DNA of 64,000 bases from Victivallales bacterium. GTDB lineage: Bacteria; Verrucomicrobiota; Lentisphaeria; Oligosphaerales; Oligosphaeraceae. A program made the translations under genes and the position numbers. Positions within the stretch are counted from its first letter, which is position 1. Each line of letters opens with the position of its first letter. The DNA lies in contig JAFXUD010000047.1 of NCBI GenBank assembly GCA_017535315.1, forward strand, positions 62,001-126,000, read 5' to 3'. Below are positions 41,554 through 64,000 of this stretch, piece by piece. Under the pieces are notes generated by a model. That model was not told where the DNA came from. It saw only the letters and a list, made by a program, of their open reading frames with translations, and searched no databases.

Positions 41554-41560
41554 GACGTGA

Positions 41561-41680
41561 GGACTTGGGACTTAGGACTTGGGACTTAGGACTCGGGACT
41601 TAGGACTCGGGACTTAGGACTCGGGACTTAGGACTCGGGACTTAGGACTTGGGACCTTGGACCTTAGAACTTGGGGCTTG
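41561..41680. repeat. tandem array of 7/14-bp units after the DAHP synthase gene
   Basis: Alternating heptamers GGACTTG and GGACTTA (14-bp unit GGGACTTAGGACTT, with a C variant in the middle four units) run for about 110 bases and decay at the right end. It begins 7 bases after the stop codon. Units are nearly identical within the array, which implies recent expansion or active homogenisation. Confidence 0.85.
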
Positions 41681-43166: not shown

Positions 43167-44376
43167 CGGCAAACGAATACTTCCCGTCTTTCAAAAGACG
43201 GATGATGCGGAACTTCTGGAGATGGCAGAACGTCTCATCGGCTCCTGCGAGTTGAACGGCATTTTCACGCGAGGGGAGATGAACCAGGCTTGGGACGACG
43301 TCACCACGGGGTTCTTCAACACCAAGCTCGCCAATGGGCTGCGGAAGATTCTGGAGGACCGAGCCCTTTTCACCTCTTCTGCAGAGCTTGACTATCCTAC
43401 CGAGCGCAAAAAAGTCCTGCTGGCCTCCGCCTCGCTCCTTAGCCAGGGAGGATTCTCCACTGAGAAAGAGTACCGCCAAAACCTTGAAGAGCGAATCGAC
43501 TCCCCGCTTGCCCGCGAAAGGCTCTACGCGGACCTTCCTGACAATGACCGCCTCCTCTCTTTTCGCGACACAAGCCCACGTGAGCTCATCGAGCGGTACA
43601 ATCTTGCTCTGGTGCAGGGGCTACTTCTTGACGCCTCTTCCATCGAACTGGATGTCGAGGATGCATCCCAAGCGCAGCTCCGCAGGCTCTTCTCCCTGGT
43701 GCGCTTCAACCGTCTGGTTTCCATGGCGGAGGCCAAAGCCCCCAAAAATCAGGTGGATTCACACGGGGAAACCACGCGAATCCACTTCACCATCGATGGT
43801 CCTGGCAGCATCCTGAACCAGTCGAGAAGCTATGGTTTCCAGTTGGCACGTTTCTTCCCTTCCGTCGTCAATCTAAAACACTGGGAGCTGAAGGCCATCA
43901 TTAACCACACAAATGCGTATGGTAGCAAAGAACGGGAACTGAGGCTGGACGAAACGTCAGGGCTCACTTGCCGTGATGCCTACGGCTCATACGTACCAGA
44001 GGAAATCGGACTCTTCCGCAAAGCCTTTGCCGCCAAAAACAGCCGATGGCATTTTCTGGAGGAATGCCCGCTCCTCAAAGGCCCAAAAGGCTTGCTTGTA
44101 TTCCCCGACTTCGGGTTCACCTCCCCAGATGGCAAAACCATCTACCTGGAGCTTTTCCACCGCTGGCACGCCAACCAGCTAATGCAGCGTCTTGACCAGC
44201 TCGATTGTGGCTCCGAATGGCCTCTTATTATCGGCGTTGACCGAGCCATTGCCGCCAAGCCAGATTTTCAGGAACGCCTGGAAAACTCCCCTGCCTTCCA
44301 AAAAGCAGGCTTCCTCTATAGGGACTTTCCCACTGTCGATAGACTGGTGTCAAGACTCGAACAGATTAGTGGTTAG
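43132..44376 (+). CDS. Bax1-type nuclease (DUF790), XPB partner
   Basis: 414 residues from GTG 43132, with AGAAGGAG at 43117-43124; the frame is open further upstream but that part only mirrors the helicase gene. N-terminal wedge-like region LTKDLVICRCSGKRILPVF, central helical part with ERYNLALVQGLLLDASSIEL, and a C-terminal nuclease domain with LLVFPDFGFTSPDGKTIYLE and LFHRWHANQLMQRL, giving the P-D...E-x-F-x-x-W pattern of DUF790/Bax1. In archaea Bax1 is a structure-specific nuclease held to XPB. The overlap with the XPB gene implies a complex. Its stop codon TAG (44374-44376) is the second unit of a heptamer array. Confidence 0.85.
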   Translation: MLTKDLVICRCSGKRILPVFQKTDDAELLEMAERLIGSCELNGIFTRGEMNQAWDDVTTGFFNTKLANGLRKILEDRALFTSSAELDYPTERKKVLLASASLLSQGGFSTEKEYRQNLEERIDSPLARERLYADLPDNDRLLSFRDTSPRELIERYNLALVQGLLLDASSIELDVEDASQAQLRRLFSLVRFNRLVSMAEAKAPKNQVDSHGETTRIHFTIDGPGSILNQSRSYGFQLARFFPSVVNLKHWELKAIINHTNAYGSKERELRLDETSGLTCRDAYGSYVPEEIGLFRKAFAAKNSRWHFLEECPLLKGPKGLLVFPDFGFTSPDGKTIYLELFHRWHANQLMQRLDQLDCGSEWPLIIGVDRAIAAKPDFQERLENSPAFQKAGFLYRDFPTVDRLVSRLEQISG

Positions 44377-44478
44377 TGCTTAGGGGGTAGTGCTTAGGGG
44401 GTAGTGCTTAGGGGGTAGTGCTTAGGGGGTAGTGCTTAGGGGGTAGTGCTTAGGGGGTAGTGGTTAGTGGGTAGAGGG
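44367..44478. repeat. TAG-N4 heptamer array spanning the bax1-like stop codon
   Basis: Units TAGTGGT, TAGTGCT, then six alternations of TAGGGGG with TAGTGCT, closing with TAGTGGT, TAGTGGG, TAGAGGG. The stop codon of the upstream gene is formed by the second unit. The inverted partner array is at 44597-44624. Confidence 0.85.
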
Positions 44479-59040: not shown

Positions 59041-60615
59041 ATGTCTTCTCCAACCACACAGCTTTATGGACTGACCGTTCTGGAAAAATGCGGACGCGGA
59101 GCCTTTGGCGAGGTCTTTTATTGTCAGGAAGCCACTGGAAAGAAAGTTGCGCTGAAAGTCGTTTCCAAGATGGCAATCGGGACAAGCTGGGAACGGGAAC
59201 TGAGAGGTATCACCAATTACCGTCGCCTTCTGGAAAACACGCCTGGCCTCCTGCAAATCTACTACGTCGGCGAAGATAACGACTCCTTCTTCTACACCAT
59301 GGAGCCAGCCGACGCCGTTTCTGGTCAAGACCACTACTGTCCCGACACACTGGCGGTGCGCCTGGAGCATGGCCCTTTGCTTCAAGAAGAGGTCATACCG
59401 ACTCTGCGCGCTATCCTGGAGGCCATAGCCGCCCTGCACACTGCTGGCTTCGCGCACCGCGACATCAAGCCAGACAACATCCTTTTCGTCAATGGTGCTC
59501 CCAAGCTGGCCGACCTGGGATTGCTCTCAACTCTATCCGCCACCGCCACCCAACTTGCAGGCACGCTCGATTTCCTGCCACCCGAGACAATCAGCGGAGA
59601 GACATCCACCACCAGCCGCGAGACCAGCCAGCAAAATGACCTCTACGCCTTCGGCAAGCTTATCTACTGCTGCATAACGGGCAACCCCGCCAGCGCCTTC
59701 CCTTCCATGCCGCCAGAGATGCCGCTGACGCAGTTCAACAAGCACTTCTGTCGGCTGGCGTTGCATCTGTGCGACAAGGAGCCGACATGTCGTTTGCGCC
59801 ATGTAGCCGCAGTCAAAAAGGAGTTCGAACGCACCGTCCGCCTCTGCAACAATGGCGAGAACCTGAAGGATGCCCTGCGTTATCACGTTCTTCACCTTGG
59901 GCGCAGCCTCCGTTCCCTCGCTGTGCGCAACGCCCGCCGTTGGCAAAAGCACCCGATCGGACTTTCCATTGCAACCGCTGTCGTTCTGGCTATCGGCATA
60001 GCAGTTGGCATCCTCACAACCCGCCCCGACACGGAAGCGGAAAGGATTGCTAAGGTAATTGACACCGAAAAAAAACGGCAGGAAACAGCCTCGTCGTCCC
60101 ACCGCACATTCACCTTCTACAAAGGCCGATACACCCTCAGCATCCCCGTCACGTGGCAGGCCTTTGACCATGACACGCTGCTGAAGAGCATGGGTGCCCT
60201 TCGCAATCAATACAAAACCGTCTATGGTGCTTTCATCCCCGACCACCCCGAAGGCGAAACACCCAACTCCATCTTCATGGCCATGGTTTTCCCGATGACC
60301 AAAAAGCAAATCGAGACTCTGAAAGCCGAGGGCGAGGCCAAGCTGGTCGGCACCCTCCAGGAGCATCTCCCAGCCAACCTGGAGTTCGTGTGCATCAGGC
60401 ATTTCTTCAACCCGCGCAAGCAGCTGGACACGGTTCTCTACACAGCGCTGGAACATCCCGACCGAGGGGTAATGGTCTTCATCTACCCCATGGAAGACCA
60501 CTGTATGGCTCTGCTGATGTCCATCCCCGACCCCTTCTTTTCCAGAGATTCCCCTAAGTTCGGTGCCCTGCTCGACTCCCTCACGGTCAACAACCCTGGT
60601 AAAAAAAGCGACTAG
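59041..60615 (+). CDS. membrane-bound Ser/Thr protein kinase with a novel C-terminal ectodomain
   Basis: 524 residues from ATG 59041. Kinase domain 1-260: EKCGRGAFGEVFYC (Gly loop about 17-25), VALKVV (Lys39), FAHRDIKPDNILF (catalytic Asp141, Lys143, Asn146) and DLG at 158 in place of the usual DFG. One transmembrane helix (about 304-328, IATAVVLAIGIAVGILTT). The outside part 330-524 has no enzyme motif; it starts FTFYKGRYTLSIPVTWQAF and is clearly similar to the ectodomain of the protein at 61782-62429. A sigma factor and anti-sigma candidate follow, so the kinase may pass an envelope signal to transcription. The TAG stop is the first repeat unit of a CTAGATATT array. Confidence 0.9.
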   Translation: MSSPTTQLYGLTVLEKCGRGAFGEVFYCQEATGKKVALKVVSKMAIGTSWERELRGITNYRRLLENTPGLLQIYYVGEDNDSFFYTMEPADAVSGQDHYCPDTLAVRLEHGPLLQEEVIPTLRAILEAIAALHTAGFAHRDIKPDNILFVNGAPKLADLGLLSTLSATATQLAGTLDFLPPETISGETSTTSRETSQQNDLYAFGKLIYCCITGNPASAFPSMPPEMPLTQFNKHFCRLALHLCDKEPTCRLRHVAAVKKEFERTVRLCNNGENLKDALRYHVLHLGRSLRSLAVRNARRWQKHPIGLSIATAVVLAIGIAVGILTTRPDTEAERIAKVIDTEKKRQETASSSHRTFTFYKGRYTLSIPVTWQAFDHDTLLKSMGALRNQYKTVYGAFIPDHPEGETPNSIFMAMVFPMTKKQIETLKAEGEAKLVGTLQEHLPANLEFVCIRHFFNPRKQLDTVLYTALEHPDRGVMVFIYPMEDHCMALLMSIPDPFFSRDSPKFGALLDSLTVNNPGKKSD

Positions 60616-60680
60616 ATATTCTAGATATTCTAGATATTCTAGATATTCTAGATATTCTAGATATTCTAGATATTCTAGAA
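60612..60680. repeat. perfect CTAGATATT array, 9-bp period, 7 units plus partial
   Basis: Seven identical CTAGATATT units start at 60612 and every 9 bases to 60666, then CTAGAA. The first unit contains the TAG stop of the kinase gene (60613-60615). Perfect unit identity points to recent slippage or strong homogenisation. CTAG and ATAT make each unit partly self-complementary. Confidence 0.95.
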
Positions 60681-60787
60681 AAATCGCGTTGCCCTTGTAA
60701 GATTTCTTCATCGGTGCGGTAGTAAGGTTGTTGAAAGGACAAAACATTCCCTCCATCACCACAGTCCACCTCACAACAGAGATAGCC

Positions 60788-61390
60788 ATGGCATTCACCA
60801 CTAAAAAATCACTTCTAGCGCGAGTGCGCGCAGGAGACGAGGTTTCCTGGCGCGAGTTCTATTCCACCTACCGTCCCTTGATCATCCTCTGCGGCAGGGA
60901 TTGCGGCTTGACCTCCGACGAATGCGACGAATTGGTGCAGCAGGTGATGTGCGAAATCTTCCAGAAAAAGATACTGTTCAAATACAATCTTGACGAAGTT
61001 CCTGAAGACCTCAACTTCAAGTACGACCCGTCGCGTGGACGTTTCCGATACTTTCTGAAGGGCATCATCCGCAACCAGGCATTGAAGCTCTACCACAAGC
61101 GCCGCGAGCACGTCGCTATAGATGAAATTCCTGAGCCGACGAGCGACGAAGCTTTTGACGCCCATTGGGACATTGAATGGCGCAGGCATCTCTTTACTCA
61201 GGCCATGCAGGAGCTACGAAGCCATGTGCGGGCGGAAACCTTCGCTGCCTTCGAGATGTACGCCATCCAGGACCGTCCCGTCAAGGAGGTCGCGGATTTT
61301 CTGAACCTGTCGGTCGATTCCGTCTATGTCGCCAAGAACCGCTGCATAGCTAACATGAGAACCATCATCGAGAAGCTGGAGAAGAAATGA
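60788..61390 (+). CDS. ECF-type RNA polymerase sigma factor
   Basis: 200 residues from ATG 60788 (an ATG 60 bases earlier in frame is unlikely). Region 2 reads VRAGDEVSWREFYSTYRPLI with DECDELVQQVMCEIFQK, and region 4 is an HTH with IQDRPVKEVADFLNLSVDSV and YVAKNRCIANM. Region 3 is absent as in ECF factors. A less usual feature is the 15-20 residue insert with FKYDPSRGRFRYFLKGIIRN between them, a pattern seen in PVC sigma factors that accompany Ser/Thr kinases. It overlaps the small downstream gene by 4 bases. It probably directs RNA polymerase to a stress or envelope regulon. Confidence 0.9.
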   Translation: MAFTTKKSLLARVRAGDEVSWREFYSTYRPLIILCGRDCGLTSDECDELVQQVMCEIFQKKILFKYNLDEVPEDLNFKYDPSRGRFRYFLKGIIRNQALKLYHKRREHVAIDEIPEPTSDEAFDAHWDIEWRRHLFTQAMQELRSHVRAETFAAFEMYAIQDRPVKEVADFLNLSVDSVYVAKNRCIANMRTIIEKLEKK

Positions 61391-61602
61391 GTACCGTGAA
61401 ACACTATACGAAGGAAGAACTAGAACTGTATCGCAGCAAGGAGATGCCGTTCATCTCGCGCATGAAATGCACCGACCACCTCAAGCAGTGCGTCGAATGC
61501 GCCAGCCTCCTGAAGGAACTGGAAACAGAGGACGCCTTTGTCGCCGAACTGCGAGAAAGTATCAAGCTGTTTGACGAGCTCTCCCAAAGCAGCGGGGAAT
61601 GA
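61387..61602 (+). CDS. small ZAS-type (zinc-binding) anti-sigma candidate
   Basis: 71 residues, ATGA overlap with the sigma factor stop. Residues 27-38 read KCTDHLKQCVEC, giving H-x3-C-x2-C, the zinc-binding anti-sigma (ZAS) signature, followed by an amphipathic helix ASLLKELETEDAFVAELRES. It is cytoplasmic and lacks a membrane segment, so any outside signal must reach it through another protein. The kinase next door is an obvious candidate. Alternatives: it is a co-factor of the sigma factor rather than an inhibitor. Confidence 0.75.
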   Translation: MSTVKHYTKEELELYRSKEMPFISRMKCTDHLKQCVECASLLKELETEDAFVAELRESIKLFDELSQSSGE

Positions 61603-61610
61603 GTTTCCAT

Positions 61611-61766
61611 GGAGGTAATTTCAAAACTAGCGCGAAATGCACAATGGGATGGGCGCAGTGGCTTAAGCAACGGCTCAAAGCCGCACTTTCATACGACGAG
61701 AGGCATTGCCAACGCCAAAGTATTCATGTCAACGCGCATCTCAATGATAGTTTTGAAATTATCTCC
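61611..61766. repeat. family A inverted-repeat element, long copy A4 (156 bp)
   Basis: Ends GGAGGTAATTTCAAAACTAG and, inverted, GGAGATAATTTCAAAACTAT. The interior shares GATGGGCGCAGTGGCTTAAG, GGCTCAAAGCC and CATTGCCAACGCCAA with A3. CATG flanks both sides (61608-61611 and 61766-61769); because CATG is palindromic it could be either a duplication or part of the inverted repeat. It fills the gap between the anti-sigma candidate and the convergent ectodomain gene. Confidence 0.85.
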
Positions 61767-61781
61767 ATGCAGTACGCTACC

Positions 61782-62429
61782 TTATGGAACCGTTTCACGG
61801 TATTTCTGCGATGCAATGATTTCAACGATATATGGCGCGTCCTTGGTCCGCTGTTCCCAGTCCTTGGCGAAAATCGAGGTGAAAACAAGCGTGTGGTCCT
61901 CATGTGGGAAAATATCCATTCCCAAGGGCAAAAGTTCCTCGCTGCGGCTGTCGGCAACAAGCATGATGTAATCCAGCTCCAGGTCCGAGTATTTCTCATA
62001 GTGCCAGAAAATCTGCTTGCTGTCATCCCCTAAAAGACAGTATCGCCGTAACAACCCTATCACCGTCTCCTTGTCGGAGACGCCCATCAGTTCCTTAGTC
62101 GTCAAGGGAATGACCTGCACCAAAAGCCAGGTCTTGCTGTTCCCCTTTGGACGCAGGAAGCCCTCCGTACCAGGTGGAACCTCAAACACCTTGAAGTTCT
62201 CCTTCTGGCAGACCTCCCAACTGCCAGGTATCTCCAACGTATAGCGTTCGCCATAGAAAGTGAATGGGTGCGTCATGTCCTCCATTTCGCTCCCTATTAT
62301 CTCTTCGGGAAGTTCTTTCGGTTTCCGCCACACAAAGAGCGCAGCCAACACCCCCACGAGAAGCGCCAGAAATACGATCACCTTCTGTCGCACACCACCA
62401 TGCTTGCAAGTACGCTTTTGTTCTGTCAT
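61782..62429 (-). CDS. single-pass membrane protein homologous to the kinase ectodomain
   Basis: 215 residues from ATG 62427-62429 (AAGGTAGT upstream); an in-frame ATG at 62468 would add 13 residues. A short basic cytoplasmic segment precedes one transmembrane helix (VIVFLALLVGVLAALFVW). The outer part starts FTFYGERYTLEIPGSWEVC, matching FTFYKGRYTLSIPVTWQAF of the kinase, and continues in register: VIPLTTKEL / VFPMTKKQI, then DIFPHEDHTLVFTSI / FIYPMEDHCMALLMSI. It therefore carries the same sensing or binding domain without a kinase. It converges on the sigma/anti-sigma pair. It may compete for, or dimerise with, the kinase ectodomain. Function unknown. Confidence 0.8.
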   Translation of the reverse strand: MTEQKRTCKHGGVRQKVIVFLALLVGVLAALFVWRKPKELPEEIIGSEMEDMTHPFTFYGERYTLEIPGSWEVCQKENFKVFEVPPGTEGFLRPKGNSKTWLLVQVIPLTTKELMGVSDKETVIGLLRRYCLLGDDSKQIFWHYEKYSDLELDYIMLVADSRSEELLPLGMDIFPHEDHTLVFTSIFAKDWEQRTKDAPYIVEIIASQKYRETVP

Positions 62430-63014
62430 ACTACCTTGCACAAAATCCGAACTCTCATTAGCTTCCATCTAAACTGCAACAACGCCATTCCTACAAGCGA
62501 CGGGGGGCTTCGCCCCCCGAACCCCCTGCAACTATAACACGCCTTTGAGGAAGCCGCCAAAGACCATAGAAAGTTTCTGTTTATAATACAACTCCAACGA
62601 TGTTTTGTCAACTTTTCAAGCTGGAAAAGGAAGGCCTGCTTTGCAACAGTCGAGGGTGTAACGACGACGTCTCGTCGTCGAAAAAACATGCCCAACAACA
62701 TTGTAAATACAACACCTCCAACAAGGCATTCCACGCTTGCACAAGCACGGTACCGTGTTTCTTTTGTTGCACCACTCGGCGGTTGCGCAGCATAACGACG
62801 ACGAGCCGTTGTCTTTTCCACCTCGCCGCAAGTCATTAATGATTGCCCATCAAAGAAAGAAGATTTGCCAACGAATAATCCCAAACTAATTTGCAAAATT
62901 CCCAGACGGCATTATAGTTTTTCATAACGTTGGTTGATTGGGTGTTACCTCCACTTCCAGCGTGTTTCAACATAACTGAAAATACCATTCGGTCGAGAAT
63001 ACTGGATTGATAAA
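62430..63014. other. 585-bp gap with hairpins, no gene found
   Basis: I see no protein gene here; short open frames lack ribosome sites and codon bias. Notable items are a CGGGGGGC / GCCCCCCG hairpin (62501-62519), a CGACGACG-TCT-CGTCGTCG hairpin (62662-62680) and TATAAT-like AT-rich segments near 62585. The composition becomes progressively AT-rich toward the right. The gap separates ordinary genes from the structured RNA candidate and AT-rich GTPase gene. Confidence 0.5.
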
Positions 63015-63175: not shown

Positions 63176-63269
63176 GTGCCCGCTCGTGTAAGATTCTCAC
63201 CGTGAGAAATAGTAAGAGGTAGTGTTAAGAAAGCAAAAAATAAACAATTCTAAACAAAGGAAAAGTTTT

Positions 63270-64000
63270 ATGACCACCACACAAAAGTCAAACAAACAGA
63301 AATTGGGTAGTTTAGTTGATGTCATTGGTGATAGTGCTAAGAAGCTAATACGCTCATTCAATGGTCGTCGTTCTGAATTTGAGCAACATATTGCAATTTT
63401 CGGAGAATCAGGAAGCGGAAAAACAACTCTATTAACTGTTTTTTATGGCTACCAACAGACAATAGAGTTTCAACACAATGCAGGCTATAGTCTTCTTGCA
63501 GATGATACGACACAAGGACAAAGTTTGCTCAATTCATTCTATAATCTTGAAACTAAACCAATCGCCCCAACAAGATTGACTTCAAGAGAGTATTCGTTCT
63601 CAATTCGTCCAGAGGGAGTCAAAAAGAATGCAGGGAAGATTGTATGGCATGACTATCCAGGAGAATGGTGGACTGAAACAAAAACGGCAGAAGAACAAGA
63701 GGATAAAGAAAAAACATTCCTCTCTTTGATTTCATCGGATGTTGCCTTGTTCCTTGTTGATGGAACGAAATTGAAGAACGATGGGGATAAATATCTTAAG
63801 CGTCTTTTTTGCAATTTTCGAGATGAACTCCGTCGTCTTAAGGAGTATCCTGCTTTAAAAAACAGTTTTCCATTAACACATTTCCCTAGAATATGGTTGA
63901 TTTGTCTTTCAAAATCTGATTTATGGCCTGATATGACTGCTGAAAAGTTTAAACAAAAGATTTTGAAAATTGCAAATCAAGAATTGCAAGAAGTCAAAAA
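63270..64000 (+). CDS. P-loop GTPase-like protein, cut by the window edge
   Basis: At least 243 residues from ATG 63270, with AAAGGA 8-9 bases upstream; the frame is open at 64000. Walker A is FGESGSGKTTLL (45-52), the G3-like motif is HDYPGEWW (DYPGE 128-132, in place of DxxG in DTPGE) and the G4-like motif is CLSKSDLWP (SKSD 214-217, in place of NKxD). The layout fits the double-GTPase / GTPase-associated proteins that occur in bacterial conflict systems and islands, but the partner genes lie beyond the edge. Codon use is strongly AT-biased (AAA, TTA, GAT) compared with all genes before it, a sign of recent transfer. ATP-binding alternatives cannot be excluded. Confidence 0.75.
   Translation, partial: MTTTQKSNKQKLGSLVDVIGDSAKKLIRSFNGRRSEFEQHIAIFGESGSGKTTLLTVFYGYQQTIEFQHNAGYSLLADDTTQGQSLLNSFYNLETKPIAPTRLTSREYSFSIRPEGVKKNAGKIVWHDYPGEWWTETKTAEEQEDKEKTFLSLISSDVALFLVDGTKLKNDGDKYLKRLFCNFRDELRRLKEYPALKNSFPLTHFPRIWLICLSKSDLWPDMTAEKFKQKILKIANQELQEVK

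Follow-up and report, generated by a model that had tools for sequence, protein, structure and literature searches.

Here we examined a predicted signalling locus in a 64,000-nucleotide stretch of a Victivallales bacterium genome (class Lentisphaeria; contig JAFXUD010000047.1, positions 62,001 to 126,000; source assembly 4.9 Mb), the whole of which is referred to below as the window. At this locus, genes for a receptor Ser/Thr kinase, an extracytoplasmic function (ECF) sigma factor and a small zinc-type anti-sigma (ZAS) candidate follow one another on one strand, with a gene for a kinase-less membrane protein convergent to them. The features are, in order along the window:

59041..60615, plus strand: receptor Ser/Thr kinase, with a cytoplasmic kinase domain at about residues 12-270, a transmembrane segment at about 308-328 and a PsbP-like ectodomain at about 354-520
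60696..60726, plus strand: predicted ECF promoter of the sigma-ZAS genes, TGTAAGA-N17-t-AGTAAG, exact match
60788..61390, plus strand: ECF sigma factor, 200 amino acids, above the TIGR02937 cut-off and with an acidic E-x-[DE]-E motif in region 2.2 (family alignment)
61387..61602, plus strand: soluble ZAS-type anti-sigma candidate, 71 amino acids, H6-H31-C35-C38 plus C28, containing H-x3-C-x2-C
61782..62429, minus strand: kinase-less membrane protein with a PsbP-like ectodomain, 215 amino acids from ATG 62429 (228 if from 62468)
62583..62611, minus strand: sigma70-like promoter upstream of the kinase-less gene, TTGACA-N17-TATTAT, 11/12 in a consensus scan
63187..63216, plus strand: second exact element, TGTAAGA-N16-t-AGTAAG, before the DO-GTPase2 gene
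63270..64000, continuing to about 64463 past the window, plus strand: P-loop GTPase of the DO-GTPase2 family (PF19993, 4.1e-11), a predicted target

All four genes lie between 59041 and 62429, the interval delimited by an initial annotation of this DNA, which had also placed kinase, sigma factor and anti-sigma candidate in a row, as they are; the second promoter-like element, at 63187, falls outside that interval.

The kinase matches PF00069 (E=1.4e-30), and its catalytic residues K39, E53, H139-R140-D141, K143, N146, D158 and G160 are present and near invariant in an alignment of 35 kinases. Its one transmembrane segment is judged from the sequence, with the ectodomain C-terminal to it. By its catalytic Lys, HRD-x-K-x2-N motif, metal-binding Asp and single predicted transmembrane segment, the product of 59041..60615 is classed as a Hanks-type receptor kinase. 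In two related loci (L057 6198-8354 and L068 1401-3815), ankyrin-like repeats, seen by eye, come after the PsbP-like ectodomain of the module kinases.

The sigma factor scores 46.3 bits against the NCBIfam model TIGR02937 for sigma70-ECF proteins (curated cut-off 42.9) and just under the cut-offs of Pfam Sigma70_r2 and r4_2; it thus fits the ECF definition, with sigma2 and sigma4 as its only predicted domains. Searching 198 Lentisphaeria genomes with this protein delimited a sharply bounded group of 31 loci at E<1e-60, the window's own included. Within the group the acidic region 2.2 motif is kept (E45 in 30/31, E48 in 28/31) and, near the N-terminus, T5 and S8 are invariant (31/31) and T4 nearly so (30/31). 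Four sigma factors of this type, counting the window's, are encoded in the source genome, whose nearest named relatives, judged by this sigma factor, are metagenome-assembled Victivallales/Lentisphaeria of ruminant and other animal guts.

The gene of the small protein begins within the sigma stop codon, the two reading frames overlapping by 4 bp (ATGA). The protein has no match in Pfam; in its family H31, C35, C38, C28, R16 and L12 are invariant (31/31) and H6 is present in 30 of the 31 members. H6, H31, C35 and C38 together provide the H-x3-C-x2-C motif and the upstream His/Cys that characterize ZAS ligands, and their spacing is that of His25, His50, Cys54 and Cys57, the zinc ligands of M. 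tuberculosis RslA (PMC2877774), corresponding to the His-His-Cys-Cys (HHCC) kind of ZAS domain (PMC5358783). Searched as a profile against the PDB, the family finds anti-sigma factors in all of the top three places, each as a weak match (DdvA 0.02, RslA 0.054, RsiW 0.079). The protein ends at residue 71, in agreement with its earlier description as a soluble anti-sigma factor with no sensor domain of its own. In one genome (G153), a single open frame (L073 194-931) fuses a degenerate ECF sigma factor to a ZAS domain. This operon pairing and natural fusion support the small protein as a predicted binder and inhibitor of its cognate sigma factor. The fusion gene itself carries an exact TGTAAGA-N16-AGTAAG 25 bp upstream.

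The order of the three genes is conserved well beyond the window. A kinase gene lies directly upstream of the sigma gene and on the same strand at 24 of the 31 loci, and a small ZAS gene directly downstream at 28; where no kinase gene is visible the locus mostly meets a contig end, L050 and L061 being real exceptions. More distant sigma relatives (L077-L079, E ~1e-43 to 1e-49) have a small gene after the sigma gene and then a kinase gene. Conversely, a profile of the small protein gave 97 matches in 71 of the 198 genomes, at least 65 of them directly behind a sigma gene, as are 32 of the best 34. Outside the class, no sigma relative at E<=1e-30 was present among the matches listed from 388 sampled genomes of the phylum. 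The loci with the trio span several families of Lentisphaeria, and this distribution supports the earlier proposal that kinase, sigma factor and ZAS protein form a signalling module, its gene order being conserved across the class. We found no ECF-kinase modules of Lentisphaerae in the literature searched, most subscription papers lying outside that search.

A two-part sequence of the general form TGTAAGA-N16/17-xAGTAAG precedes 25 of the 31 homologous sigma genes (0.06 in dinucleotide shuffles), at either spacing, 16 or 17, and mostly 22-66 bp ahead of the start codon. Loci retrieved when the motif had yet to be recognised contain 34 such sites against 1.4 in shuffled sequence; 18 stand at sigma genes and 16 elsewhere, although one of the latter (L046:310) is probably a sigma gene's own as well. 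No shared motif was found upstream of the kinase genes. In a scan of the 4.9-Mb source genome that allowed at most one mismatch and either spacing, only four matches appeared. Two exact matches and one with a single mismatch fall within 5 kb on the same strand, at 60696 (sigma gene), 63187 (GTPase gene) and, outside the window, about 65678 (vWA and Sir2 genes); the other, also with one mismatch, is away from the module. A pattern scan across the class is noisier, a reversed control pattern being about equally frequent, and single distant matches in it are not to be trusted. We regard the predicted element, together with the neighbouring operons it would control, as the strongest functional evidence for the module.

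Between kinase gene and element lies a tandem array of perfect 9-bp repeats (60612..60679; CTAGATATT, 7.6 copies by Tandem Repeats Finder), which begins within the stop codon of the kinase gene and stops 16 bp short of the predicted -35 element; it could be a regulatory spacer of variable length. Other short tandem arrays in the window are at 41560-41680 and 44366-44474 (GGACTTG-type; TTAGGGGGTAGTGC, 7.8 copies).

Behind the second element, the GTPase scores 43.4 bits against PF19993 (cut-off 27). Past the end of the window there follow an open reading frame of 295 amino acids, the third element, and then a vWA gene and a Sir2 gene (L122 6990-8316, about window positions 65889-67215), of which Sir2 is a firm match (7.1e-51) and vWA a weak one just under the cut-off (9e-5). 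No GAP1 partner of the DO-GTPase was seen, the adjacent 295-residue frame having no Pfam match, and models of defence systems gave only generic kinase and P-loop matches among the window's proteins. In relatives, the genes behind the element encode an HtrA-like protease (G041), a Sel1-repeat-like protein and several products predicted to be secreted or to lie in the membrane; in G028 and G042, too, HtrA-like genes neighbour the module, and Pfam confirms those of G041 and G042. The preponderance of secreted or membrane proteins among the targets predicted in relatives suggests a response to envelope or conflict stress. Elsewhere, type III CRISPR-like genes (Cmr-like, by eye) lie directly downstream of a kinase-sigma module (L053 6404-11419), and caspase-like and metallo-beta-lactamase-like genes (by eye; L064 6511-7917 and 10718-11872) flank another, reminiscent of conflict systems.

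The convergent gene encodes, as had been noted, a membrane protein that shares the ectodomain of the kinase. The two are related at E=3e-5 by BLASTP. When the convergent protein was left out of a profile made from five kinase ectodomains, that profile still detected it at E=5.1e-14 (Z=5000), and shuffled controls gave no matches; the PxEDH motif takes the form YPMEDH in the kinase, FPHEDH in its convergent counterpart. This ectodomain had been called unrecognised, a description that predicted structures now replace. An AlphaFold2 model of the kinase ectodomain (predicted local distance difference test, pLDDT, 91.8), compared with solved structures by Foldseek, matches the PsbP family best (1.5e-6, TM-score 0.5-0.65), followed by LpqN, DcrB, the Eag chaperones of type VI secretion systems and Tsi3, each likewise a PsbP/Mog1-type protein. 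The model of the kinase-less protein is poorer (pLDDT 72.2) and has the same best matches (PsbP, 4e-6); the two predictions are not fully independent, as their alignments have members in common. Both ectodomains are thus assigned, from the models, to the PsbP/DcrB (Mog1-like) fold, and the comparison of folds on which their kinship had been made to depend yields one predicted fold common to both. The Pfam family PsbP_2 (PF18933) detects only three of 22 ectodomains at E<1, at best with 1.7e-4 in a family member. No kinase ectodomain of the PsbP type was found in the literature searched, to which most subscription papers did not belong. Since PsbP-like folds bind proteins and ligands in many different contexts, the fold does not by itself point to the signal.

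The kinase-less protein has one N-terminal transmembrane segment ahead of its outer domain, and ATG 62429 is its more likely start because AAGG stands just upstream. At E<=0.01 it is absent from the other 197 of the 198 class genomes, so that the four genes are ruled out as a conserved unit, contrary to what had been envisaged, and only the set of three is conserved. Because it occurs in a single genome, has its own sigma70-like promoter and lacks the TGTAAGA-type element, we take the kinase-less protein to be a private accessory at most. The shared ectodomain pair, which the initial annotation had singled out as the new part of the system, does not define it.

In the interpretation that we consider probable, the ECF system at this locus regulates itself and a local regulon, is gated by the kinase and acts as a membrane-to-DNA switch specific to Lentisphaeria. 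In the off state, the soluble HHCC-type ZAS protein would bind and silence the sigma factor, as its family and operon suggest. The PsbP-like domain of the kinase, outside the cytoplasmic membrane, would read some envelope signal. The active kinase would then phosphorylate a partner, more likely the ZAS protein than the sigma factor, and the sigma factor would be released. Free sigma factor would recognise TGTAAGA-N16/17-xAGTAAG, as the strict placement of this element suggests, and transcribe its own sigma-ZAS operon, closing a feedback loop, along with neighbouring effector operons, in the source genome the DO-GTPase and vWA-Sir2 operons. The kinase-less protein would be a private add-on under a housekeeping-type promoter of its own, possibly competing for the same ligand. 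The kinase is the likely input because a soluble anti-sigma factor with no sensor needs one, and the kinase is the conserved membrane-spanning partner. A precedent exists in PknB, which phosphorylates the ZAS protein RshA and thereby frees SigH (PMC13147305; PMC8999054).

Several points weigh against this interpretation. At least two loci lack an upstream kinase gene within the sequence covered (L050 and L061) and three lack a recognisable ZAS gene (L051, L053 and L067), so neither is absolutely required beside the sigma gene; six of the 31 sigma genes have no clear motif, and the targets vary between genomes, with no single output common to them. That ZAS and sigma bind, that phosphorylation occurs and on which target, that the element is recognised at all and by the window's sigma factor rather than another, with what sign regulation acts and what the signal is are all inferred.

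The kinase might instead phosphorylate and activate the sigma factor directly, in the manner of EcfP-PknT and EcfK-PknS, with the ZAS protein as a secondary brake or tuner. Adjacency of kinase and ECF genes is a hallmark of groups ECF43, 59, 61, 62, 217 and 283 (PMC8999054), the adjacent Ser/Thr kinase gene of ECF43 is found at this locus too, and the invariant T5 and S8, with T4, might be phosphosites, although their conservation may have another cause. ECF43 sigma factors, however, lack the acidic DAED motif and have Ser/Thr in its place, which makes phosphorylation necessary (PMC8999054). As all this depends on a missing motif that is kept here as E-x-[DE]-E across the 31 sequences, activation through region 2.2 is disfavoured, the ECF43 mechanism is unlikely to apply unchanged, and we favour release from the ZAS protein. 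Those kinase-linked groups, moreover, usually come without an anti-sigma factor (PMC8999054), whereas here the ZAS protein is the most constant partner; overall we hold direct activation to be unlikely. We are more doubtful still that the ZAS protein is itself a redox or zinc sensor like RsrA or RslA, with the kinase acting indirectly or in a parallel pathway. Its HHCC ligands and extra invariant Cys28, the redox sensing of the soluble ZAS proteins RsrA and RshA (PMC8999054; PMC2877774) and the loci with sigma-ZAS and no adjacent kinase speak for such a role, but the kinase gene immediately upstream at 24 loci, and the mostly secreted or membrane products, rather than thiol genes, among the targets predicted in relatives, argue against it. 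That kinase, sigma-ZAS pair and nearby operons are mere neighbours, the element being the promoter of another ECF factor, seems very improbable: the element is rarely upstream of the kinase gene and the genome encodes four such sigma factors, yet the order holds at those 24 loci in several families, and the element centres on the sigma gene's own promoter region and clusters nearby.

A bolder extension of the kinase-gated switch, which we offer only as speculation, is that the PsbP-ectodomain kinase, by freeing the sigma factor through ZAS phosphorylation, would arm the DO-GTPase and vWA/Sir2 genes, a conflict-type operon pair, as an immunity-like system, the kinase-less copy serving as a ligand decoy.

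Kinase-ECF pairs, ZAS proteins and the control of a ZAS protein by a kinase are already known. Like the ECF43 pairs EcfP-PknT of Vibrio and EcfK-PknS of Xanthomonas, the module sets a transmembrane Hanks-type kinase, its ectodomain the presumed sensor, beside an ECF sigma factor; it differs in its ZAS gene, acidic region 2.2 and PsbP-like ectodomain, the PknS ectodomain having tetratricopeptide repeats (PMC13147305). The planctomycete groups ECF59, 61, 62 and 217, associated with Ser/Thr protein kinases, belong like it to the PVC (Planctomycetes, Verrucomicrobia and Chlamydiae) group and combine an adjacent kinase with an acidic or near-acidic 2.2 motif, but usually have no anti-sigma gene (PMC8999054); we set them apart here by description. 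RslA and ChrR share the HHCC zinc site, RslA with identical spacing, but differ from the small protein, RslA by its association with the membrane and ChrR by its cupin sensor domain. SigH-RshA-PknB of M. tuberculosis likewise joins a soluble ZAS protein and an ECF sigma factor to a kinase that phosphorylates the anti-sigma factor, as we infer for the module. The PASTA kinase PknB, however, is encoded away from SigH-RshA, and RshA is a redox sensor, whereas the Lentisphaeria module has all three genes together. The target gene recalls the DO-GTPase conflict systems of planctomycetes and verrucomicrobia (Kaur et al. 2020, PMC7159879) in that it matches DO-GTPase2, but no GAP1 partner was identified; that paper's text contains neither the term "sigma factor" nor "anti-sigma". 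No report of a one-module trio that pairs a PsbP-type sensor with a local regulon came to light in the literature searched, from which most subscription papers were missing.

Taken together, the trio combines a kinase with an anti-sigma factor, although kinase-linked ECF factors have been described as usually lacking one, and a fold can now be named for a class of kinase ectodomains barely recognised by sequence profiles. Because its promoter element can be read and its predicted local regulon is small, the module offers a directly testable case of Hanks kinases gating ECF factors outside ECF43, and it assigns a predicted regulator and its predicted targets in a phylum whose regulatory biology has been little explored.

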